Origin: Alphaproteobacteria bacterium
Lineage (GTDB): Bacteria > Pseudomonadota > Alphaproteobacteria > UBA8366
DNA: 64,000 bases
Assembly (NCBI GenBank): GCA_028281325.1
Contig: JANQKC010000010.1
Location: forward strand, 1 to 64,000
Direction of reading: 5' to 3'
This document shows positions 44,342 to 63,220 of this stretch, in pieces. A program made the translations under genes and the position numbers. Below the pieces are notes generated by a model that worked only from the letters and a program-made list of their open reading frames with translations, had not been told where the DNA came from and ran no database searches. The number at the start of each line of letters is the position of its first letter. Within the stretch, counting starts at the first letter, position 1.

Positions 44342-44403
44342 GATGACGCACCGCCGCGCAATCCGATATTGTGTGGGGCGCCAAGGATAAGGAGTTTCTG
44401 AAA

Positions 44404-45423
44404 ATGCGCCTACTGCTGGTGGACAAGCGATACCCCGAAGAACCCGAGATCGAGCGCGCCGTGATCGGCAGCGCCGGCGAGTATGAATTCTACCCGGTCG
44501 CCGACGACGTGCCGGAGGACGCGTGGCGCGCAGCCGAGGGGATTCAGACCTTCCGCGAAAGCAAGGCGGTCAACGCGATGGCGATGGCCGGCAAGCTGAA
44601 GAATTGCCGCATCATCGTGCGCGGCGGCGTCGGCTTCGACAATCTCGACCTGCAGGCGCTCGGCGAGATGGGGATCGCGGTGTGCAACGTGCCCGACTAC
44701 GGCACGACCGAGGTCGCCGACCATGCCATGGCGCTGTTCCTGGCGCTGCGCCGGGGCATCACCACGTTCAACGACGCCCTGCGCAAGGATCCCGCCGCCG
44801 GCTGGCAATACAGCGCGGCCCCCTGCGTCGACCGATTGCGCGGGCGCAAGTTCGGCATCATCGGCCTTGGCCGGATCGGCACGGCGGCCGCCCGGCGCGC
44901 CCAAGCCTTCGATATGGACGTGTTGTTCTACGATCCGGATCTGCCGGACGGTGCGGACCTCGCCACCGGCTACACGCGGGTTTCCTCCGCGGAAGAACTG
45001 GCCGAATCCGCCGACGCGATCAGCCTTCACACACCCCTGACCGAGGCGACCACCCGCATGGTCAACGCCGACCTGCTGAGCCGCATGCGCCCGGGCGCGG
45101 TTATCGTGAACACCTCGCGCGGTCCAGTGATCGACCTCGACGCGCTGCATGCGGCGCTCAAGGACGGCACGCTCGGCGGCGCGGGACTGGACGTCTTCCC
45201 GGTGGAGCCGGCGGACGCATCCCATCCCCTGATCAGCGCCTACATGAAGCGCGAAGCCTGGATCGACGGGCGTTTGGTCCTCAGCCCGCATGCCGCCTTC
45301 TTCAGCGACGACGGCAACAACGACCTGCGCCGGAAATGCGTGGAGACCATGGTCGACTATCTCGGCGAGGGACGGCTGCGGAATTGCGTCAACGAGGAGT
45401 GGCTGCGGACCGGCGCGAATTAG
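44404..45423 (+). CDS. 2-hydroxyacid dehydrogenase (C-terminal-binding-protein-like)
   Basis: 339 residues from ATG 44404, with AAGGAG upstream. The Rossmann motif is FGIIGLGRIGTAAARRA. The active-site Arg is in VIVNTSRGPVIDLDALH, Glu in DVFPVEPADASHP and His in LSPHAAFFSDD. Its FRESKAVNAMAMAGKLKNCR region and overall length resemble CtBP-type oxidoreductases. It lies 63 nt before a TauD-family gene on the same strand, so both may act on one substrate. Substrate unknown. Confidence 0.88.
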   Translation: MRLLLVDKRYPEEPEIERAVIGSAGEYEFYPVADDVPEDAWRAAEGIQTFRESKAVNAMAMAGKLKNCRIIVRGGVGFDNLDLQALGEMGIAVCNVPDYGTTEVADHAMALFLALRRGITTFNDALRKDPAAGWQYSAAPCVDRLRGRKFGIIGLGRIGTAAARRAQAFDMDVLFYDPDLPDGADLATGYTRVSSAEELAESADAISLHTPLTEATTRMVNADLLSRMRPGAVIVNTSRGPVIDLDALHAALKDGTLGGAGLDVFPVEPADASHPLISAYMKREAWIDGRLVLSPHAAFFSDDGNNDLRRKCVETMVDYLGEGRLRNCVNEEWLRTGAN

Positions 45424-45486
45424 CCCGGCTCGGTCGAACGCCCTATAATCGGGTTGCTTATCGACGGCAACCCGAAGAGGCCCAAA

Positions 45487-46338
45487 ATGGTCAAGGTCAT
45501 CCCGGTCGACGCGCCGATCGGCGCGGAAATTCGCGGCGTCGATCTGTCGAAACCGTTGGACGACGACACCTTCGCGGCGATCGAAAACGCCTTCAACGAC
45601 CATGCCGTCATCTGGTTCCGGAACCAGACGATCACGCCGGCGCAGCAGGTGACCTTCAGCGAGCGGTTCGGCGAGATCGAGGTCAACGCCTTCAACAAGT
45701 TCGCGCTGCCGGACGATCCGAAGGTGCTGATCGTCTCGAACATCAAGCAGGACGGCAAGGACATCGGCTATGCCGACGCCGGCAGCCACTGGCACACGGA
45801 CATGTCCTATACCGCGACGCCGCCGCGCATGACGATGCTGTACGCCATCGAGGTGCCGGTGGAAAACGGTACGCCGCTGGGCGATACGGTTTTTGCCAGC
45901 GCCACCGCCGCCTATGACTCGCTGCCGGACGAGACCAAGGCGAAGATCGAGGGGCTCAAAGCGACGCACCGGTTCGCGGCGAAGGAGCGCGGCGTCAAGA
46001 AGCCGGTCGCGCTGACGCCGGAACAGATCGCCAAGAATCCCGACGTGGACCATCCGGTCGCCCGCACCCACCCGATCACCGGCCGCAAGGCGCTCTATGT
46101 CCGCACCGGCGAGTGCATCGGCATTCCGGGCATGCCGGACGCCGAAGCCTTGCCGCTGATCGACGAATTGTCGGACCGGATCATCCGCCCCGAGTTCCTG
46201 TACCGCCACCGATGGCGGGTCGGCGACGTGCTGCTATGGGACAACGCGGCGGTCCAGCACTGGGCGCCACGCGACTACGAATGGCCGCAGCGCCGCCGCA
46301 TGCACCGCACCACGGTCAACGGCTCGGTGCCGTTCTGA
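45487..46338 (+). CDS. TauD/TfdA-family 2-oxoglutarate-dependent dioxygenase (paralogue 1)
   Basis: 283 residues from ATG 45487. Fe(II) ligands are the HxD pair H103/D105 in SHWHTDMSYT and the distal histidine in WDNAAVQHWAPRDY; the 2-oxoglutarate arginine is in RMHRTTVNG near the C-terminus. Intact. The last 57 bp (46282-46338) recur almost unchanged at 48168-48224, beyond an inserted gene. Probably hydroxylates a small acid to start its breakdown; substrate unknown. Confidence 0.92.
   Translation: MVKVIPVDAPIGAEIRGVDLSKPLDDDTFAAIENAFNDHAVIWFRNQTITPAQQVTFSERFGEIEVNAFNKFALPDDPKVLIVSNIKQDGKDIGYADAGSHWHTDMSYTATPPRMTMLYAIEVPVENGTPLGDTVFASATAAYDSLPDETKAKIEGLKATHRFAAKERGVKKPVALTPEQIAKNPDVDHPVARTHPITGRKALYVRTGECIGIPGMPDAEALPLIDELSDRIIRPEFLYRHRWRVGDVLLWDNAAVQHWAPRDYEWPQRRRMHRTTVNGSVPF
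46282..46338. repeat. 57-bp direct repeat, left copy (3' end of tauD paralogue 1)
   Basis: TGGCCGCAGCGCCGCCGCAT... to the TGA stop of the dioxygenase gene. The right copy at 48168-48224 differs at two positions, both synonymous third-codon changes (CAG/CAA and CGC/CGT). The pair brackets the low-GC segment carrying the 491-codon gene, like the ends of an integrated cassette or a remnant of a duplicated gene. Confidence 0.85.
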
Positions 46339-46407
46339 GGCGTCGGCACGCCACTTTGTCTCCAAGAGACAGCTTTTTCCGACCCCAAGAGCAAGGCGCA
46401 ACGGGCC

Positions 46408-47883
46408 TTAGGCTAAACCGGCAGTCGACCTGACGAGGTTGCGCCCGAATACCTTTTCTACCTGAGGGGCCAAGTCTCTTCGAACACCCGGACTGAGTAT
46501 GGCGCCCCTTAGATCGCGGTACTGATCGATATAGGTATCGCGATTGAATCGCCAAAGGAGTTGTCCAACGGCCACTGTGGATCCAACGAAACCGCTTATA
46601 AACGGATCGCCGACGTAAGCCATTTGGAGTAACGGGGCAATATCCGGCCAGCCGGAGAGCCATGCCTTCAAAGATTGGCCGACGAAATGAGACCCTACGC
46701 CCGATGCAGCCCCCAATGCGGTAGCGTCGATCGCCGGCCGAAGAAACTCCCGAGTTTTTGTTTTCGTTTGCCCATAACGCTGCAACTCTTTCTCAAATTC
46801 TTTTAGGTCGGCATCGATCTCGTCAACACGATCCGCACCAGCCCGCTTGCGTTCGATTTCAACCGCCTTCCGCCAGAGATACGGGAACCATTTGTCCCGG
46901 TAACCATCGACAAAACTATTTGTCTCAGCGATTAAGTGAGCCGGATCTTTCACGTCTGTCGACAAAAGGACATGAAGCCCAATTGAAGGAATCTGACTAT
47001 TCCATTCCAGATCGCGCCGAAATACATCCGATGGAGTCGATCCGATTTCTCGTTGAAAGATTTCCAAGCAAGTCTGATAGGCAAGCTTTCCATCGCGAAT
47101 TGACAGCGGCATTAAGTTGGGTGTGGGCAGGTATATGCTTCGAGAGCGTCGAGAGAGTTGACGCGCATAATGCAGGCGAAAGCGATTAATCAGAGCGCCC
47201 GTGACGCGCAGCGCCTGGACATCGCCGTTACTCGCATAGGCGCCGATGGCCGCTCGTGAGGCGTCAGGACCCAAGGATGCAATTGCCGCAAGGCATTTGC
47301 TCCCTCTAAACCGCTTATTGTCTCGATACTCGGCCGCCATCTCGCTTGCGAGACGACCGACATCGCAGTCCGAAGTCTGCTGCAAGGATTTATCGATATA
47401 CTCCAATTCCTTCTTGAATCTTTCATGGCCCTTGATATCCGGACTGCCATCGCGATTCACGAGATCAGAGTCAGCAGGCGTTAACTCGAAAGGCCGCGGC
47501 GAACCGGAGCTGTCCACGAGGAAATCCAATAACCCGAATGACGCAAATGACACATCCTCCGCGTGGGTTGGCCCTGTGCGTAATCCGACAGCGTCGGGAA
47601 TAAGCTTGTCCATTCCCGTCGCGTCCCTAAGCGATGTCCCCCATTCCGAAAGATCGCCGTGATCGCGTTCGGGTAGCGTTCCATCATAAACGAAGCCGTT
47701 TGCCATGGCGGCGGTTTCGACAAACCATAAGGCATCCGCTAACTCGTCCACGGTCATTTCCGATGGCGTATCATGTAAGGATTTGTCGAGCAGTTTGGAT
47801 GCACGTTCGAACGACCGTTTGTTAAGAAGGAAGGTTCCGTCGTACCGGCTGGTTTCCAAAGCGGGCATCTCAGTACTGACCAT
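46408..47883 (-). CDS. Unknown 491-residue protein in a low-GC island
   Basis: No family recognised. The N-terminal two thirds look soluble and helical (RASKLLDKSLHDTPSEMTVD, ADALWFVETAAMANGFVYDG, DLVNRDGSPDIKGHERFKKE). A charged, likely coiled segment RVDEIDADLKEFEKELQRYG precedes two glycine-rich, weakly hydrophobic stretches (AIDATALGAASGVGSHFVGQ and FISGFVGSTVAVGQLLW) that might insert in a membrane. GGGAG precedes ATG 47883. Base composition is clearly lower in GC than the flanks (hand count: 24 of 60 G+C at 46741-46800 and 33 of 60 at 46801-46860). Bracketed by direct repeats, with its own AT-rich promoter. Probably horizontally acquired; a defence or toxin role is possible but unsupported. 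Confidence 0.85.
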   Translation of the reverse strand: MVSTEMPALETSRYDGTFLLNKRSFERASKLLDKSLHDTPSEMTVDELADALWFVETAAMANGFVYDGTLPERDHGDLSEWGTSLRDATGMDKLIPDAVGLRTGPTHAEDVSFASFGLLDFLVDSSGSPRPFELTPADSDLVNRDGSPDIKGHERFKKELEYIDKSLQQTSDCDVGRLASEMAAEYRDNKRFRGSKCLAAIASLGPDASRAAIGAYASNGDVQALRVTGALINRFRLHYARQLSRRSRSIYLPTPNLMPLSIRDGKLAYQTCLEIFQREIGSTPSDVFRRDLEWNSQIPSIGLHVLLSTDVKDPAHLIAETNSFVDGYRDKWFPYLWRKAVEIERKRAGADRVDEIDADLKEFEKELQRYGQTKTKTREFLRPAIDATALGAASGVGSHFVGQSLKAWLSGWPDIAPLLQMAYVGDPFISGFVGSTVAVGQLLWRFNRDTYIDQYRDLRGAILSPGVRRDLAPQVEKVFGRNLVRSTAGLA

Positions 47884-47902
47884 TTCAGTCTCCCACGGTG
47901 TT

Positions 47903-47923
47903 ATTCAAACGTTTAATTTGAAT
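47903..47923. promoter_or_regulatory. Perfect dyad (operator-like) upstream of the 491-codon gene
   Basis: ATTCAAA-CGTTTAA-TTTGAAT: two perfect 7-bp arms around a 7-bp spacer, 20 nt upstream of the ATG. On the minus strand it is preceded by TTTATGATACGATAATATT, an AT-rich run containing a possible -10 hexamer GATAAT that touches the dyad. This placement suits a repressor site near the transcription start. No regulator gene is adjacent. Confidence 0.5.
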
Positions 47924-47963
47924 ATTATCGTATCATAAACACCTTATAGGTGAACAACGCAGT

Positions 47964-47990
47964 GTGGATTTTCGGTATGACCAAATCCAC
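47964..47990 (+). terminator. Hairpin with short T-run, possible terminator
   Basis: Arms GTGGATTT and AAATCCAC are perfect, with an inner GGT/ACC pairing and a central ATG, followed by TTTT. It lies in the gene-free 354 bp between the 491-codon gene and the CoA-transferase gene. The rest of that gap, up to 48149, contains no gene that I can recognise; one plus-strand frame (FNNNETTVRSASNGSKDRIR then a stop) may be debris. Confidence 0.35.
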
Positions 47991-48151
47991 TTTTAGGGAA
48001 AGGCGTTCGACCCATAGCTCGGCGCAGTTCAACAACAACGAAACCACCGTGCGCTCGGCCTCGAACGGAAGCAAGGACAGGATCAGAGGATCAAAGGCCT
48101 TCTAGGCATGGTCCGACCGGCAGTTCTAGGTAACGGTAGTATTAGGTCATG

Positions 48152-55694: not shown

Positions 55695-56483
55695 ATGAGT
55701 TTCGATTTCATACCGTTTGCGGAAATCGACGGTTTCGCCGTCGCCGCGCTCCTGGTCATCTATTTCCTGGCCTTCTTCATCCGGGGGATCATCGGGTTCG
55801 GCTCGGCCATGCCCGCCGTCCTGGGCAGCGCCTGGATCCTGCCGCCGCATGACGCGGTGCTGATCGCTCTGCTGACATCGGTCTTCGCGCAGGTCCAACT
55901 GCTGCCGCAGGGGTTTCGCGACGCCAATTGGAAAATCACCAAGCCGTTGGTCGCCGGCGCGATCCTGTCGGTGGCCATCGGCGTTTGGATCTTCGCCGCG
56001 CTGGAGGCAGCCTGGCTGACCATCGCGCTGGGCCTCATCCTGAGCGCCGCCGTGATGATCGACATCGGACGGCTGACCCAGCATATGTCGAAAATCTTGC
56101 GACTCGACCGGTTCGCGGTCGCCTTTTCGCTCGCCAGCATCGCGGGATTGATGGCCGGAATCGCTGGGGCCGGATCGAACTATTTCCTTTCGGTCTATAT
56201 CCGCTGGGCCGCGCCGGAACCGCGGGTCTTCCGGGCGACCAACATCCTCGTCTCCGGCGCGATGACGCTGTGGCGCTGCTGCGTCACGTTGATCGCCGGG
56301 CTGCTGTCGATCAAACTCGCCGTCGAATCGCTGCTGGTCATGCCCGCGGTCTACGCCGGCGCCTGGGCGGGCCGCATCATGAGCGAACGGCTGTCGGCGG
56401 AGCGGTATTTCGGCCTGTTCCGCTGGCTGTTGCTGGCCGCCGCCGTGGCGCTGATCTGGAAAGGCGTGACCGCTCTCGATTGA
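55695..56483 (+). CDS. TauE/SafE-family sulfite/anion exporter
   Basis: 262 residues from ATG 55695 with AAGGA upstream. About eight helices, with the duplicated family pattern: AFFIRGIIGFGSAMPAVLGS in the first half and ASIAGLMAGIAGAGSNYFLS in the second. TauE/SafE proteins export sulfite, sulfoacetate or related organic anions. Placement next to several TauD dioxygenases, which in their best-known form release sulfite from taurine, is suggestive but not proof. Confidence 0.87.
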   Translation: MSFDFIPFAEIDGFAVAALLVIYFLAFFIRGIIGFGSAMPAVLGSAWILPPHDAVLIALLTSVFAQVQLLPQGFRDANWKITKPLVAGAILSVAIGVWIFAALEAAWLTIALGLILSAAVMIDIGRLTQHMSKILRLDRFAVAFSLASIAGLMAGIAGAGSNYFLSVYIRWAAPEPRVFRATNILVSGAMTLWRCCVTLIAGLLSIKLAVESLLVMPAVYAGAWAGRIMSERLSAERYFGLFRWLLLAAAVALIWKGVTALD

Positions 56484-56606: not shown

Positions 56607-57452
56607 ATGTATCAAATCAATCCTTTAGGAGACGCGCTCGGCGCCGAAGTGATCGGCCTGGATCCGAGCCGGGACTTGACCGAAGACGAATCCCGCATGC
56701 TCAACGAGGCGTTCTTCGACTACCTGCTGTTGTGTATCCGCTGTGATCCCATGCCGGCGGAGGATTTCGCCCGCTTCGGCCGGCAGTTCGGCAAGCCGCA
56801 GCTTCAGCTTCTGCGCAACCGCCGTCACGGCGACGTGCCGGAAGTGTCCGTCCTGGAATCCACCTATAAACGCGCGGAAGACAAGCCGGACGACATGCAG
56901 ATGATGCGCCTGTCGGGATGGCACACCGACGATTCCTATTTCGCCAAGCCCGCCAAGGCGACGATGTATCAGTCGCTCCAGATTCCCGAGTCCGGCGGTC
57001 AAACCCGCTTCTGCAACATGCGCCAAGCCTATGACGACCTGTCCGACGCAATGAAGGCGCGGCTCGACGGCCTGAAGACGGTGCACAGCTACGACACGAT
57101 GCGCGCACCGGCCCGCGCGTCGGCTCGCACCGCCGTCGAGGCCTCGGAAACGCCGGACGTGGTGCACCCGCTGATCCGAACCCATGAAGACACGGGCCGC
57201 AAGGCGATCTACCTCAATTCGAACCGGACAGACCGGATCGTCGACATGAACCGCGCCGAAAGCGATGCCCTGCTCGACGAGCTGTTCGACCATGTCACGC
57301 AGCCGAAATACGTGTACGACCACGAATGGCGGGTCGGCGACGTCCTGCTCTGGGATAACCGCTGCCTGATGCATTCGGTCAACATGGACTTCCCCGTCGG
57401 ACAAACGCGGCTGCACCAACGCCTCCTGCTGGAAGGCGCGATTCCGGTCTAG
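56607..57452 (+). CDS. TauD/TfdA-family dioxygenase (paralogue 2)
   Basis: 281 residues from ATG 56607, with AGGAGA upstream. Fe(II) ligands H106 and D108 in SGWHTDDSYF; the distal His is in LLWDNRCLMHSVNMD, and the 2-oxoglutarate Arg in TRLHQRLLLEG. Note HQR instead of HRT at this site. Intact and of normal length. First member of the 56.6-63.2 kb plus-strand run. Substrate unknown; only modest similarity to paralogue 1, so it probably acts on another compound. Confidence 0.9.
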   Translation: MYQINPLGDALGAEVIGLDPSRDLTEDESRMLNEAFFDYLLLCIRCDPMPAEDFARFGRQFGKPQLQLLRNRRHGDVPEVSVLESTYKRAEDKPDDMQMMRLSGWHTDDSYFAKPAKATMYQSLQIPESGGQTRFCNMRQAYDDLSDAMKARLDGLKTVHSYDTMRAPARASARTAVEASETPDVVHPLIRTHEDTGRKAIYLNSNRTDRIVDMNRAESDALLDELFDHVTQPKYVYDHEWRVGDVLLWDNRCLMHSVNMDFPVGQTRLHQRLLLEGAIPV

Positions 57453-57491
57453 CGACGGCCGAAACGATCCAAGCCGGGGGCGCTGCAGGGG

Positions 57492-57617
57492 CATGCATTT
57501 CCGGCACGGTTCGGGTATCGTCTCTCCCGGCGGCCGCATGACGTCCTGATCCGGGATAATCGCTGCCTCGTAACCGCCGCGACGAATGGCTGTACGGAGC
57601 CTCGGCGCATGCATTGA
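57492..57617 (+). pseudogene. Degenerate TauD C-terminal fragment
   Basis: The frame reads HAFPARFGYRLSRRPHDVLI then RDNRCLVTAATNGCTEPRRM-H and TGA. This aligns with the dioxygenase pattern F-x-Y-R...R-x-GDVL(I/L)WDNRC...PRRMHR of the intact genes here, but the Trp before DN is Arg, the distal His position is Thr, and the gene stops at the MH of RMHRT. Upstream coding sequence is lost. The whole 250-bp gap 57453-57702 is otherwise without a gene. Confidence 0.65.
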
Positions 57618-57702
57618 AGATTTGCCGACAGGCCGTGAACCGTACTGGCGGCCGACCCAAACGACGTAAACGCCCAGCCCTAAGCCCCGGGAGACACCGC
57701 AT

Positions 57703-59295
57703 ATGACCAAACGCCTCGACGCTCAATCCCTCAAAACTATGATCACGGACGGCGAGGAAATCGCCCTGCTCGATGTCCGAGAGGACGGGCAGTTCGGCGA
57801 AGGCCATCTGCTGTTCACCGTGCCGGCCCCCTACAGCGTGTTGGAAATGCGCCTGGCCGCGCTGATGACCCGCAAATCGGTGCGCACGGTGCTGGTCGAC
57901 GATGGCGACGGCGTCGCCGAGAAGGCCGCAGCGCGGATGGACGACCTGGGCTTCACGAATGTATCGATCCTCGACGGCGGCGTGCCCGCCTGGGCCGCCG
58001 CGGGCTATGAGATCTTCAAAGGGGTCAACGTTCCCTGCAAAGCCTTCGGCGAAGTGGTCGAGCACGCGGCCCATACGCCATCGATCTCGGCGGAAGAATT
58101 GAACGCCATGTTCGAGAATAACGAGGACTTGGTGGTCGTCGACGGCCGCACGCCGGAGGAATACAAGCGCATGAGCATTCCCAACGGCATCAGCGTGCCG
58201 AACGCGGAACTCGTCTACCGCATCCAGGAACTGGCGCCCTCGCCGGACACCACGGTTGTGGTCAACTGCGCCGGACGGACGCGTAGCATCATCGGGGCGC
58301 AGACCCTGATCAACGCGAAAATCCCGAACAAGGTGGTCGCGCTCCGCGCCGGCACGATGGGCTGGAACCTCGCCGGCTTCGAGTTGGACCACGGCGCGAC
58401 GCGCCGGTATCCCGAGGTGTCGGCCGACGGCATGAAGGTCGCGCAACAGCGGGCCGCCGACATGGTCGCGCGCTACAACATCAGGAAGACCAATCTCTCG
58501 ACCGTGGAAAAATGGCGCGATGACCCGAGCCGCAGCCTCTACCTGCTAGACGTGCGCGACCGGGCCGAATACGAGGCCGGGCATCTGCCCGGCGCCGTGC
58601 ATGCCCCCGGCGGGCAGCTGGTGCAGGCGACCGACGCCTGGATCGGCACCAAGGGCGCGCGCGTCGTGCTGACCGACGATACGGAAATCCGCGCGATCAC
58701 GGCGGCGCATTGGATGGTCCAGATGGCTTGGGACGTCTATGTCCTGGAAGGCGGCATCGGGGACGCCGGCACCGAAACCGGCACGCCGCCGCGCGCCGTT
58801 CTCGGCATCGACGACATCGCCGTCGACACGATGACGCCGCAGGAGCTGTCGCAGGCCCTGGACGACGGAACGGCCGTCGCGGTCGATATGGACTTGTCGG
58901 GGCATTACCGGGACCGGCGTTTGCCCGGCGCGCATTGGGGCATCCGGCCACGGCTCGACCGGCTCGCGGCCGAGCTTCCCGCCGGCAAGACCGTCGTGCT
59001 CTATTCCGAACACGAAACCCGCGCCCGGCTCGCGGTGCCCGACATGCGCGCCGCGACCGACGCGCCCGTCGTCCTTCTCGCCGGCGGGCGGGAAGCCTGG
59101 GTCGCCGCCGGGCTGCCGACGGAAGCCTCCGGCGGCACGCCGCCCGACTCCGAGCGGATCGACTTTCTGTTCTTCGTCCATGACCGTCATGACGGGAACG
59201 AACAGGCGATGCGCGACTATCTGAGTTGGGAGGAAGCCCTGCCCGCCCAGATCGAAAACGACGGCGACGCAGGCTTCACCGTGATCACACCGTAA
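57703..59295 (+). CDS. Four-domain rhodanese-like protein
   Basis: 530 residues, four tandem rhodanese domains beginning near residues 5, 125, 260 and 385 (each opens with an LDVRE/VVDGRTPEEY/LLDVRDRAEY/AVDMDLSGHY-type strand). Only domain 2 has an active-site cysteine, C189 in VVNCAGRTRS; the matching loops of domains 1, 3 and 4 are VDDGDG, LTDDTE and LYSEHE. Cytoplasmic, with no signal peptide. Expected to carry persulfide sulfur or act as a scaffold. GGGAGA precedes the ATG. It sits between two TauD genes, consistent with organosulfur metabolism. Confidence 0.88.
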   Translation: MTKRLDAQSLKTMITDGEEIALLDVREDGQFGEGHLLFTVPAPYSVLEMRLAALMTRKSVRTVLVDDGDGVAEKAAARMDDLGFTNVSILDGGVPAWAAAGYEIFKGVNVPCKAFGEVVEHAAHTPSISAEELNAMFENNEDLVVVDGRTPEEYKRMSIPNGISVPNAELVYRIQELAPSPDTTVVVNCAGRTRSIIGAQTLINAKIPNKVVALRAGTMGWNLAGFELDHGATRRYPEVSADGMKVAQQRAADMVARYNIRKTNLSTVEKWRDDPSRSLYLLDVRDRAEYEAGHLPGAVHAPGGQLVQATDAWIGTKGARVVLTDDTEIRAITAAHWMVQMAWDVYVLEGGIGDAGTETGTPPRAVLGIDDIAVDTMTPQELSQALDDGTAVAVDMDLSGHYRDRRLPGAHWGIRPRLDRLAAELPAGKTVVLYSEHETRARLAVPDMRAATDAPVVLLAGGREAWVAAGLPTEASGGTPPDSERIDFLFFVHDRHDGNEQAMRDYLSWEEALPAQIENDGDAGFTVITP

Positions 59296-59316
59296 AGACC
59301 CCGCCGAAGGTTCGAC

Positions 59317-60159
59317 ATGACCGTAACCATCGCCCCCCTTGCCGAGAATGCCGGCGCGGAAGTCACCGGCCTCGACCTGCGCGACGAGGTCGACGCGGAG
59401 ACGGCTAAGCGGCTCAACGACGCCTTCGTCGACCGGGTCGCCTTGGTGTTCCGCGACCAGACATTGACGCCGCAGGCGTTCGTGAAGGGCGCCAGCATCT
59501 TCGGCAAACCGATGAAACAACTGCTGGCGCAGTATCATCTGCCCGACTGCCCCGAGGTCGGCACCGTGTCGAACCGGGACCGCGACACCAAAGGCGACGG
59601 CAAGATCCTGATCCGGGGCACCACCTGGCACACCGACCATTCGAACAAGGAGGTGCCGCCAAAGGCGACATCGCTCTACGCGGTCGAATTACCGGACAGC
59701 GGCGGCGACACGGAGTTCACCAATACCTGCGCCGCCTATGACGCGCTGCCGGACGACACCAAGAAGCGGATCGACGGCCTACAGGCGGTGCATGCCTATC
59801 TCAGCAGCCGCACGCCCCGCAAGCTGCCGAAACGCACCAAGGAAGAGGAAGCGGCCAGCCCGGATATGATCCAACCGCTGGTCCGCACCCATCCCGATTC
59901 CGGCCGCAAGGCGCTATACTTGAATCCGGTGCGGATCGAGGAATTCGTCGGCGTCGAGAAGGAGGAGGGCTTCGCGCTGCTCAATGCGCTGATGGCGCAC
60001 GCCACCGAGGACCGCTTCATCTACCGGCACAAGTGGCGGCGCGGCGACATGGTGATCTGGGACAACCGCTGCTCGATGCATCAGGCGCATACGGACTATG
60101 ACATGAACCAACTTCGCCTGCTGCACCGGCTGATGCTGGAAGGCACCAAGCCGGTCTAG
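59317..60159 (+). CDS. TauD/TfdA-family dioxygenase (paralogue 3)
   Basis: 280 residues from ATG 59317, 21 nt after the rhodanese stop. Fe(II) ligands H105/D107 in TTWHTDHSN, distal His in VIWDNRCSMHQAHTDYDM, 2-oxoglutarate Arg in LHRLMLEGTK. Complete. LADSGG-type middle (VELPDSGGDTEFTNTCAAYD) is conserved. Clearly cotranscribed with the rhodanese gene. Substrate unknown. Confidence 0.92.
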   Translation: MTVTIAPLAENAGAEVTGLDLRDEVDAETAKRLNDAFVDRVALVFRDQTLTPQAFVKGASIFGKPMKQLLAQYHLPDCPEVGTVSNRDRDTKGDGKILIRGTTWHTDHSNKEVPPKATSLYAVELPDSGGDTEFTNTCAAYDALPDDTKKRIDGLQAVHAYLSSRTPRKLPKRTKEEEAASPDMIQPLVRTHPDSGRKALYLNPVRIEEFVGVEKEEGFALLNALMAHATEDRFIYRHKWRRGDMVIWDNRCSMHQAHTDYDMNQLRLLHRLMLEGTKPV

Positions 60160-60190
60160 CCGGCGGCGCAGGACACGGAGGAGACGCGCG

Positions 60191-61078
60191 GTGGCCACGA
60201 TCCGCATCATGTTCAGCCGGTTCTCGGCCTTCTACAGCCCGCTGATCTGCACCTTCGCCGGCGGTTTCCTGGGCGAGGAAGGCCTGGACGCCGAATACGG
60301 CGTGGCGACGCCGGACCGGTCGGCCGGAGAAGCCGTGGAGAACGGGTCCCATCACGTCACGCAATACGCGGTCTCCGCCAGCTGGGCGGCGATGGAGGCG
60401 GGACGGTCTTCGTCGCTCGTGCATTTCGCGCAGATCAACCTGATGGACGGATTCTTCATCGCGGGCAAGGACCCGGATCCGGGCTTCACCTGGGACAAGC
60501 TGGCGGGCAAGCGCGTGCTGGTCGACCACGGCGCACAACCCTTGGCGATGTTCAAATACGGCCTGCACCGCATGGACGTCGATTTCGGCAGCATCGAGGC
60601 GATCGACATGGGCGGCGACGACGCCATGGAAGCCGCCTTCCGCGCCCGCCGGGCCGACTACGTCCATCTGCAGGGTCCGACGCCGCAACAGATCGAAAAA
60701 GACGGGGCCGGGCATATCGTCGCTTCGGTCGGCGAAGCGGTCGGCCCGGTCGCCTTCAGCAGCCTCGCCGCCACGCGCGACTGGCTGGCGACCGACATGG
60801 CGCAGGCCTTCATGCGCGCCTACCGCAAGGCGCGCGCCTTCGTCATCGAGACGCCCGCCGCCGACGTCGCCCGGATCGAACAGGATTTCTTCCCCGATAC
60901 CGACACGGACGTTCTGGCCAAGACCATCGCCTTCTACCAGGGTCTCGGCAATTGGCATCCCTCGGTCGAGATCGGCCGCGACTCTTACGAAACCGCGCTC
61001 GATGTGTTCGAACATAGCGGCCTGATCACCCGGCGGCATGCCTATGAAGACGTGTGCGCCGCGCCGCCCGATGCGTAG
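60191..61078 (+). CDS. NMT1/ABC-substrate-binding-like protein without signal peptide
   Basis: 295 residues from GTG 60191, with a strong GGAGGAG. The fold pattern is that of NitT/TauT or THI5-NMT1 periplasmic binding proteins: ATIRIMFSRFSAFYSPLICT, FLGEEGLDAEYGVA, LAGKRVLVDHGAQPLAMFKY and the C-terminal lobe AFMRAYRKARAFVIETPAAD. There is no signal peptide or lipobox, so it should stay in the cytoplasm. It may be an enzyme or sensor that reuses this fold. The ABC permease and ATPase that would accompany a true binding protein are absent. Confidence 0.75.
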   Translation: MATIRIMFSRFSAFYSPLICTFAGGFLGEEGLDAEYGVATPDRSAGEAVENGSHHVTQYAVSASWAAMEAGRSSSLVHFAQINLMDGFFIAGKDPDPGFTWDKLAGKRVLVDHGAQPLAMFKYGLHRMDVDFGSIEAIDMGGDDAMEAAFRARRADYVHLQGPTPQQIEKDGAGHIVASVGEAVGPVAFSSLAATRDWLATDMAQAFMRAYRKARAFVIETPAADVARIEQDFFPDTDTDVLAKTIAFYQGLGNWHPSVEIGRDSYETALDVFEHSGLITRRHAYEDVCAAPPDA

Positions 61079-61087
61079 TCGCGCCGC

Positions 61088-62311
61088 GTGAACCCGCCGC
61101 CCACCGATACGCACCGTGCCGAAAATCCGTGGCGAACCCGGCTGGCGGTCCTGACCCTTGCCCATGTCGTCGGCACGTTGCACATCACCACATTGACCGT
61201 GATGGCGCCGGTCATCAAAGAGGACCTTACGCTTTCCTTTACGCAGGTCGGCCTGCTGGTCACCGCCTATAGCGCCGGACAGGTCACAGGATCGATCCCG
61301 GCGGGCACGTTGAGCGACCGTGTCGGCGTCGGCTGGGCGCTGGTCGTCGCGCATCTTTTCATGATCGCGGGCGCCGCGACGCTGACCCAGGCCGACGGCG
61401 CGGCGATGGCCATGGCGGCGATGCTGTTGACCGGCTGGGGGTATGCGATCGTCAACCCGGCAACCGCGAAGGGCGTGTTCGATTCCTTCCCGCCGGAGCG
61501 GCGCGCGACGGCGATGGGGATCAAGCAGACCGGGGTGCCGATCGGCGGGGTCACGGCGGCGGTTCTCGGCTCATTCGCGACGGCCGACGGCTGGCCCCTG
61601 ATCACCGCCGGCGTCGCCATCGCCACCGTCGCCGGCGGCCTGTGCTGTTTCGCCATCGTCGAACGCCCGAAACCCCGAACCGGCGCGGCCGCGGCGGCGC
61701 GGTCCGGCGCGCTGCGCGAAGTGATGCAGGACATGAATTTCGCCCGCTTCGTGTTGGCCAATTTCCTCTACAATTTCGGCCAGGCGAGCTTCTTCGCCTA
61801 CCTAACGCTGTTCATCCGGCAAGGCGCGCAAGCCAGCCAGGAAGTTGCCGGCCTATGCTACGGCGTCGCGCAAATCTTCAGCGTCGCCGCGCGGCTCGGC
61901 TGGGGCGCGGTCAGCGATTTCCTGTTCAAGGGACGGCGCAAATCGCTCACCCTGGGTTTGGGGGTCGTCGCCGCCGTCTGCCTCGCCGCGATGACGCAGG
62001 TCGCGCCGGGATGGGGCTTGACGCTCGGCGTTGGACTGTCCGCCGCGCTCGGCGTTACCATCGCATCCTATGCACCGCTGATGCAGACCATGGCGACCGA
62101 GGCGGTGCCGACGCACCTGACCGGATCGGCGGTCGGCTACAACATGGTCGGCACGTCGATCGGCAGCATCGTCGGTCCGCCGCTCTTCGGCGCGGCCATC
62201 GACGTCACCGGCACTTTCGAGAGCGGCTGGCTGCTCTGTTCGATCCTCGTTGCGGCCGGCGTGACCCTGCTGGCCTTCGGGTTTCGCGAACGGGGCGCGG
62301 CAAAGGAATAG
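61088..62311 (+). CDS. MFS transporter
   Basis: 407 residues from GTG 61088, 9 nt after the previous stop. Twelve helices. TLTVMAPVIKEDLTLSFTQV, GTLSDRVGVGWALVVAHLF (motif A) and PPERRATAMGIKQTGVPIGG (sugar/anion-type motif) are recognisable. Likely brings in or exports the substrate of the neighbouring dioxygenases and dehydrogenase. The ribosome-binding site is weak, so translation may be coupled to the upstream gene. Confidence 0.88.
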   Translation: MNPPPTDTHRAENPWRTRLAVLTLAHVVGTLHITTLTVMAPVIKEDLTLSFTQVGLLVTAYSAGQVTGSIPAGTLSDRVGVGWALVVAHLFMIAGAATLTQADGAAMAMAAMLLTGWGYAIVNPATAKGVFDSFPPERRATAMGIKQTGVPIGGVTAAVLGSFATADGWPLITAGVAIATVAGGLCCFAIVERPKPRTGAAAAARSGALREVMQDMNFARFVLANFLYNFGQASFFAYLTLFIRQGAQASQEVAGLCYGVAQIFSVAARLGWGAVSDFLFKGRRKSLTLGLGVVAAVCLAAMTQVAPGWGLTLGVGLSAALGVTIASYAPLMQTMATEAVPTHLTGSAVGYNMVGTSIGSIVGPPLFGAAIDVTGTFESGWLLCSILVAAGVTLLAFGFRERGAAKE

Positions 62312-62329
62312 CGACTTGGGAGGAGAGTC

Positions 62330-63220
62330 ATGACAATCGGTTTCATCGGACTGGGCAACATGGGCAACCCCATGTGCGGCCGGTTACTCGACGCGGGACA
62401 CCAGCTCGTCGTGCACGATATCGACGAAGACGCGGTCAAGCCGATGGCGGACCGGCAGGCGCGGGTGATGGGATCGCCGAAGGACGTGGCCGACGCCGCC
62501 GACGTAGTCTTCGCCTCGCTGCCGACCAACGCGTCGCACCGGCAGGTCGCGCTCGGCGCCGACGGCATCCATGCGGGGGCAAAGGCGAAGATCTTCGTCA
62601 ATCTCTGCACGGTCGGCGGCGCTTACATCCGAGAGATCGCCGACACGCTTGCGACATCGAACATCGCCACCATCGACTGCCCGATCAGCGGCGGTCCGCC
62701 GGGCGCGGCGGCGGGCACCCTGTCGGTCATCGTATCGGGCCCCACAGACGCCTTCGAACAGGTGAAAGACATGCTCGACCGATTGGGCACGATCACCTAT
62801 GCGGGCGAGGAGGTCGGCATGGCGCAAAGCCTGAAACTGGCCAACAACATCCTGTCGGCCACGGCGCTGGCCGCGACATCCGAAGCGCTGGTGATGGGCG
62901 TCAAGGCGGGGTTGGACCCGGAGGTCATGCTGCAGGCGATCAATCTCGGCAGCGGCCGCAACAGCGCGACCCTGGACAAGATTCCCCGCGACGTGCTGAC
63001 CCACAACTTCGCCTTCGGGGCGGCGATGGACATCCTGCTGAAAGACATCGACATGGCGGTCGCCGAAGGCGAGGGCCTGGGCGTGCCGATGCGCGTATGC
63101 CAGTCGACGCGGCAGTTCTTCCGGTTGGTGCAGGCGCAGCTCGGCGGCGACGCCGACATCACCCGCGTCGCCGAATGGGTCGCCGGGGCCGCGAAAACGG
63201 AGATTCCGAAGACGCGCTGA
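62330..63220 (+). CDS. 3-hydroxyisobutyrate dehydrogenase-like NAD(P)-dependent oxidoreductase
   Basis: 296 residues. The NAD(P) motif GFIGLGNMGNPM lies at residues 4-15, the substrate motif is DCPISGGPPGAAAGTLSVIV, and the catalytic lysine is in SLKLANNILSATALA. Beta-hydroxyacid dehydrogenase family (hydroxyisobutyrate, tartronate semialdehyde, 6-phosphogluconate-like). GGGAGGAG precedes the ATG. Last gene of the plus-strand run and probably oxidises a hydroxy acid formed in the same pathway. Confidence 0.9.
   Translation: MTIGFIGLGNMGNPMCGRLLDAGHQLVVHDIDEDAVKPMADRQARVMGSPKDVADAADVVFASLPTNASHRQVALGADGIHAGAKAKIFVNLCTVGGAYIREIADTLATSNIATIDCPISGGPPGAAAGTLSVIVSGPTDAFEQVKDMLDRLGTITYAGEEVGMAQSLKLANNILSATALAATSEALVMGVKAGLDPEVMLQAINLGSGRNSATLDKIPRDVLTHNFAFGAAMDILLKDIDMAVAEGEGLGVPMRVCQSTRQFFRLVQAQLGGDADITRVAEWVAGAAKTEIPKTR

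Follow-up and report, generated by a model that had tools for sequence, protein, structure and literature searches.

A gene cluster near the end of the window, a 64,000-nt stretch of an Alphaproteobacteria bacterium (contig JANQKC010000010.1), belongs to a conserved module with the order TauD (0-2 copies), rhodanese, TauD (1-7 copies), NMT1-like protein and major facilitator superfamily (MFS) transporter, present in one family of uncultured Alphaproteobacteria. The cluster may serve to remove sulfur, or charged groups of another kind, from organic matter. The best of several readings, to which we assign a probability of roughly 45%, is that its products form an oxidative module which frees sulfite from anionic organic compounds and then gets rid of it. 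The window belongs to contig C14 in a 5.1-Mb genome (referred to below as the own genome, G000), and the genes in question are the following.

55695..56483 (about), + strand: TauE/SafE-type (DUF81) membrane exporter (Pfam PF01925, 78.9 bits, E 5.8e-22)
56607..57452, + strand: TauD-family Fe(II)/2-oxoglutarate dioxygenase, slot A (PF02668, 215 bits against a cut-off of 27)
57483..57701, + strand: degraded remnant (3' end) of slot B, a second TauD gene, plus spacer (match to G001)
57703..59295, + strand: four-domain rhodanese (PF00581, four stretches)
59317..60159, + strand: TauD-family dioxygenase, slot Z (PF02668, 223 bits against a cut-off of 27)
60191..61078, + strand: leaderless NMT1/SsuA-like protein with a periplasmic-binding-protein fold (GTG start; PF09084, 33.5 bits)
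61088..62311, + strand: MFS transporter (PF07690, 176 bits)
62330..63220, + strand: beta-hydroxyacid dehydrogenase of the tartronate-semialdehyde reductase / 3-hydroxyisobutyrate dehydrogenase type, accessory (PF03446 and PF14833; motifs GLGNMG, DCPISGG and KLANN)

The initial annotation, made from the sequence alone, had described six same-strand genes from the first TauD to the dehydrogenase, mostly separated by 9-31 nt and forming one coherent catabolic set. All six open reading frames lie on the + strand at the positions given there, Pfam confirms their families, and the spacing is true of four of the five gaps (250, 21, 31, 9 and 18 nt in order), the 250-nt gap being the exception. The TauE/SafE-type gene falls outside these six; it ends 123 nt before the first TauD gene on the same strand and is possibly the first gene of the cluster. 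Scans of the cluster region gave one promoter-like site (0.9 expected) and nine terminator-like sites (4.8 expected), none positioned to define a transcription unit.

Conservation was followed through the NMT1-like protein in 59 genomes, the own genome and 58 relatives. A match of some kind occurs in 30 of the 59, and a match of at least 50% identity in 16 of the relatives, one of them partial. Within the own family, six of the ten relatives carry a close orthologue, which together with the own genome makes seven genomes in three genera; the four members without one are incomplete genomes (64-87%). All seven have the rhodanese upstream, TauD genes before the NMT1-like gene and an MFS gene after it. 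Because the arrangement recurs in every family genome with a close NMT1 orthologue, the grouping is more than chance. Absence of the cluster from related species, which would have spoken against the earlier proposal, is thus contradicted by these six relatives, and a conserved grouping is supported for the rhodanese, TauD, NMT1-like and MFS core (7/7). It does not extend to the dehydrogenase, which occupies this position only in the own genome and G001 (2/7) and is a local addition rather than part of the conserved core. In four of the seven clusters (own, G001, G002 and G006) the rhodanese is preceded upstream by a gene for TauE or a match to it.

The number of TauD genes on the cluster strand varies: two in the own genome, three in each of G001, G002, G006 and G009, and nine in each of G004 and G008, where two precede and seven follow the rhodanese and an additional inverted copy lies beyond the MFS gene. 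A phylogeny built on 89 sequences (50 of the 64 own TauDs, the arrays, some others and 1GQW; FastTree only, with local supports), from which 14 low-scoring own TauDs (<140 bits) were left out, placed all 32 on-strand array copies in one clade of 37 (support 0.996), together with four of the 48 other own TauDs and one other copy of G008; the inverted G008 copy falls outside it. Within this clade the copies group by slot. Slot A (0.999) unites the first window TauD with the first TauD of G001, G004 and G008, slot B (1.0) comprises the second TauD of the same three genomes, and slot Z (0.915) joins the last window TauD to the third of G002, G006 and G009 and the eighth of G004 and G008. The three slots of G002, G006 and G009 recur in the same order within the G004 and G008 arrays, and pairwise identity among the nine on-strand TauDs of G008 is 32-46%. 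This slot-wise grouping across genera, at such low identity, indicates an old ordered array and not a fresh tandem duplication.

The exceptional gap between the first TauD gene and the rhodanese is explained by the same slots. Positions 57483-57701 match the 3' end of the slot B gene of the sister species G001, where this gene is intact, and its spacer at 79% over 219 nt (E 1.6e-49); a reversed-gap control gave a best E of 0.34. The window array has therefore lost a slot, and the remnant accounts for its only long gap.

TauD genes are abundant throughout this lineage. Full counts are 64 in the own genome, 108 in G001, 46 in G002 and 100 in G008. In a comparison of 44 genomes, the own included, families f1 and f2 (the latter a sister family) contribute 22 genomes with at least 24 each, and f3, f4 and f5 another 22 with 1-11 each; about 44 best hits were scored, so that high counts in this comparison are lower bounds. 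Such abundance raises the question of whether the cluster comprises chance neighbours in a TauD-rich genome. TauD pairs are indeed common here, as the 64 own genes include 13 neighbouring pairs less than 3 kb apart, eight of them on one strand. Random placing, however, gave 2.5 pairs on average and at most 8 (2000 placings, contig ends ignored), and gene order and slot orthology are kept in seven genomes of three genera, which makes chance very improbable. The window itself holds a further TauD gene (Pfam match 45502-46314, within 44371-46338), preceded by what by eye appears to be a 2-hydroxyacid dehydrogenase gene. Nearby, positions 46001-48000 have a G+C content of 0.553, against about 0.63-0.66 in adjoining stretches; this low-G+C stretch holds a 491-residue open reading frame on the minus strand (46408-47883) and was perhaps acquired.

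Positions of E. coli TauD have known roles at the iron, at 2-oxoglutarate and on the substrate side. Both window enzymes keep the equivalents of H99, D101, H255, T126, R266 and R270. The TauDs of the array are paralogues of long standing, each conserved separately, whose sites for iron and 2-oxoglutarate are intact. The top PDB match of the first window TauD is 3pvj, a taurine dioxygenase.

The rhodanese matches PDB entry 1yt8, which we take to be PA2603, as a full-length four-domain relative (455 bits over residues 14-528). Its only cysteines are Cys112 and Cys189, and only domain 2 has an active-loop cysteine (C189 in CAGRTR; CAGRTRS is aligned with 1yt8). The sulfur role, which the initial annotation offered for it beside a scaffold role, is accordingly plausible for a protein of this kind with a single active-loop cysteine. 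The own genome has a second rhodanese gene, on contig C28, with 47% identity; no adjoining thiol dioxygenase was recognisable there, and the 167-residue neighbour had no Pfam match.

In the preferred reading, the MFS carrier would import anionic organic compounds, and each TauD slot would hydroxylate a different compound at the carbon bearing the leaving group, so that an aldehyde forms and sulfite (or sulfate) is set free. Sulfite would then be removed by the rhodanese, through conversion of sulfite or persulfide to thiosulfate, and a TauE-type exporter, where present, could export sulfite as well. The dehydrogenase may handle products in the own genus. The NMT1-like protein would be cytosolic and act on one ligand shared by many such pathways, as a sensor, binding partner or enzyme. 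A sulfoacetaldehyde acetyltransferase encoded elsewhere in the own genome (G000:C39:112325-114061; 876 bits against a curated cut-off of 676) was counted in favour of sulfite release, as were the core kept in all seven genomes, the collinear slots of one clade, the intact TauD metal and 2-oxoglutarate ligands with R270, the 1yt8 type of the rhodanese with its published dioxygenase associations, TauE in four of seven clusters and the taurine dioxygenase match of the first TauD. A more specific and tentative extension is a desulfonation array that evolves slot by slot, in which each slot keeps its own substrate over long times and slots are gained or lost around a shared rhodanese, a shared carrier and a new cytosolic class of the binding fold, the single conserved ligand of which would occur in many catabolic clusters of several bacterial phyla.

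Several observations weigh against sulfite release. Relative to E. coli TauD, the substrate-side residues are changed (H70 to Gln, V102 to Asp or His, F206 to Arg), with the alignment less sure at stretches 70-73 and 159. Both enzymes score below the cut-off of the taurine-dioxygenase profile NF007104 (161 and 181 bits against 313), and the second TauD finds its best PDB match in 6d0o, an (R)-phenoxypropionate dioxygenase, in a near tie with 5keu, which is named a taurine dioxygenase. No TauE was found in three of the seven clusters, and the TauE family is broad. In the sister family f2, close relatives of the rhodanese (58-66%) adjoin pyruvate kinase at all five loci read (identified by Pfam at one locus, L242, with the other four linked by BLAST). 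In three members of the own family, G003, G005 and G010 (rhodanese 50-59%), no TauD directly adjoins the rhodanese; in G010 two TauD genes lie on the opposite strand at a distance of about 5 kb. Given these neighbourhoods in f2 and the own family, the rhodanese does not have to belong with TauD. The TauD pair beside the NMT1 orthologue of L112, outside the family, is not of the array clade.

Part of this evidence favours an array that oxidises sulfur-free anionic compounds, such as aryl-oxy-alkanoates, dicarboxylates or N-/O-alkyl acids, with the rhodanese engaged in persulfide or cofactor chemistry. The phenoxypropionate match and the pyruvate kinase neighbours fit such an array, and Arg at 206, and at 159 where the alignment is less certain, points to substrates with a second negative charge. 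Such an array would also suit the dehydrogenase of the window cluster and, in G003 and G010, a gene near the rhodanese for an aldehyde dehydrogenase that is closest to the succinate-semialdehyde type. Sulfur-free substrates would, however, leave the retention of rhodanese in all seven clusters unexplained, and TauE upstream in four of them and the taurine dioxygenase match of the first TauD argue the other way. This alternative is therefore regarded as possible, and less probable than sulfite release.

The initial annotation had noted that the NMT1-like protein lacks a signal peptide and ABC partners and may hence be an enzyme, as in the THI5 branch of the fold. The two observations are borne out. 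In the predicted model (predicted local distance difference test score, pLDDT, 95.3) the first strand comprises residues 2-8, and 16 of 17 aligned members start at the same column, as given by the match coordinates of family members. Pfam detected no ABC component among the six cluster genes, nor any among all eight proteins of the window that were scanned. Against the SsuA_fam profile the protein scores 18.7 bits (cut-off 163.5). A scan of named genomes returned 344 that encode relatives; the best 80 of these, 56-89% identical, belong by their record titles to Alpha-, Beta- and Gammaproteobacteria, Chloroflexi/Dehalococcoidia, Rokuibacteriota and Methylomirabilota. An alignment of 60 sequences (the window protein and 59 of the 80 loci, picked to lower redundancy) contains 44 invariant columns, including S12, Y15, Q58, H78, Q81, N83, D86, Q116, Q161, Q166, Q167, S190 and S191. 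From their positions, many of the invariant residues, those named among them, appear to sit in the cleft-lining loops of the fold.

The neighbours of the NMT1-like gene, by comparison with its cleft, change. They were counted at 94 loci, a number that omits the repeats L057-L059 and L061-L063, loci with distant NMT1 relatives, and L083, L086 and L087 (no seed). MFS lies directly downstream in 15 (seven in the own family, eight elsewhere), and the same-strand run includes a dehydrogenase-family gene in 10, TauD in 8 (seven in the own family) and rhodanese in 7. Phosphodiesterase, CoA-transferase, amidase, alpha/beta-hydrolase, DHDPS-like, dehydrogenase and MFS genes each accompany a minority, and no single partner is constant across the 94 loci. 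The run includes genes without identification at 62 of the 94, and the statement on ABC genes covers the window cluster. A constant cleft with changing partners suggests that the NMT1-like protein binds one ligand common to many pathways and not the substrate of each.

Structural comparison of the predicted model gave the best matches to the ThiY, CmpA and SsuA types (VIA Z 24-27), followed by Thi5 (Z 20-23; Foldseek E about 1e-14), TauA (22.8), and then DszB (18.9) and MqnD (19). The regulatory domains of CmpC (9uak, 9uai) and NrtC (8wm7) were also among the matches (Z 23-24). As far as the model goes, the fold by itself decides neither for an enzyme nor for a binding role, since TauA is no better a match than Thi5. 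A THI5- or DszB-like enzyme would share the cytosolic location and this fold, and the near-invariant cleft is in keeping with catalysis. THI5 relies on Lys62/His66 and a Cys cluster, and DszB on the catalytic Cys27. None of the 60 aligned sequences' columns is an invariant Lys or Cys: the best Lys column (54/60) is near residue 213, far from 62 by sequence alignment rather than 3D superposition, and the most conserved Cys column (47/60) is Leu in the window protein. The THI5 type fits by fold, but it was set aside because the consensus has no Cys cluster and six of the seven array genomes have ThiC; a DszB-type desulfinase would suit the sulfur context and was rejected on the Cys columns. Of the earlier enzyme proposal the fold similarity thus remains, and an enzymatic role of either sort is judged unlikely. 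The better candidate of the two, if still a doubtful one, is a role alongside the MFS carrier as its sensor or regulatory partner in the cytosol, comparable to that of the cytosolic binding-protein domain in NrtC or CmpC: the gene directly precedes MFS at the 15 loci mentioned and the CmpC and NrtC domains are among the fold matches, yet 79 of the 94 loci have no MFS gene of this cluster directly downstream.

Other NMT1-like genes occur in varied surroundings. The own genome has a second copy (L071, G000:C28 33014-33886; 53% identical) beside genes for an amidase, an isopropylmalate-dehydrogenase-like protein, a BhcC-like aldolase and a GMC oxidoreductase, and the same genes cluster in G001 (L069). 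In G011 (L066, 6222-9938) the NMT1-like gene follows PAPS-reductase-family (CysD-like) and CysN/CysC-like genes of sulfate activation on the same strand. At L076, L078, L080, L081 and L087, distant members (27-29%) have genes for a thiamine-diphosphate enzyme and an SDR in their vicinity. In another family of the order (L063, L064, L070 and L075), an NMT1-like gene and a beta-hydroxyacid dehydrogenase gene stand amid the housekeeping genes for RNase III, Era and RecO. A plasmid collection contains 16 NMT1-like records, of which the eight listed are all below 31% identity; several of these distant relatives are labelled 'ABC transporter substrate-binding protein'. Should the cytosolic reading be true, leaderless NMT1-like members bearing that name are misnamed. 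More broadly, dissolved organic sulfur and other anionic organic matter are chemically diverse and their degraders poorly known, and a lineage with 46-108 TauD genes (fully counted genomes) and ordered arrays offers a concrete list of enzymes.

Compared with known systems, the NMT1-like protein shares the NMT1/THI5-like fold and Pfam family with the SsuA, TauA and ThiY binding proteins; in contrast to these ABC-type proteins, it has no leader and no ABC partner in the cluster, and adjoins an MFS gene. The dioxygenases share the Pfam family, the HxD...H iron site and the 2-oxoglutarate Arg with TauD/TfdA enzymes acting on taurine, alkylsulfates and phenoxypropionate, but differ from taurine dioxygenase proper in score and substrate-side residues, and from the TauD/TfdA enzymes generally in forming ordered arrays of 2-9 diverged copies. 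Units of a thiol dioxygenase with a rhodanese offer another parallel. In P. protegens, a passage of PMC12947264 places a PA2603 homologue, annotated as probable thiosulfate sulfurtransferase, with 3-mercaptopropionate dioxygenase in apparently one transcription unit, and an excerpt of PMC5373536 reports mercaptosuccinate dioxygenase genes clustered with a rhodanese-domain gene. There as here an iron dioxygenase adjoins a rhodanese, which in the window is of the 1yt8 type; TauD enzymes take the place of the cupin thiol dioxygenase, none of which was detected by Pfam among the eight window proteins scanned. The TauD expansion resembles the paralogue expansions of SAR202, described in parts of PMC6946804 for enolases, flavin monooxygenases and ring-hydroxylating dioxygenases (62 of the last, or 1.96% of the genes, in the richest genome), in that a single family of catabolic enzymes is represented by dozens of divergent paralogues in uncultured bacteria. 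Here the family is TauD and the host an alphaproteobacterium; 'TauD' and 'taurine' have 0 occurrences in the main text of that paper. A mention of multiple TauD-related proteins in Entotheonella, in a section of PMC10356861, means that TauD multiplicity as such is already in print. Among the papers listed in searches of the open-licence PMC literature, none was recognised as a description of this lineage's TauD expansion or of a rhodanese-TauD array. The kinds of genes are known; the unusual feature of this variant is their combination, an ordered array of diverged TauDs with a rhodanese, an MFS carrier and a binding-fold protein that has no leader.

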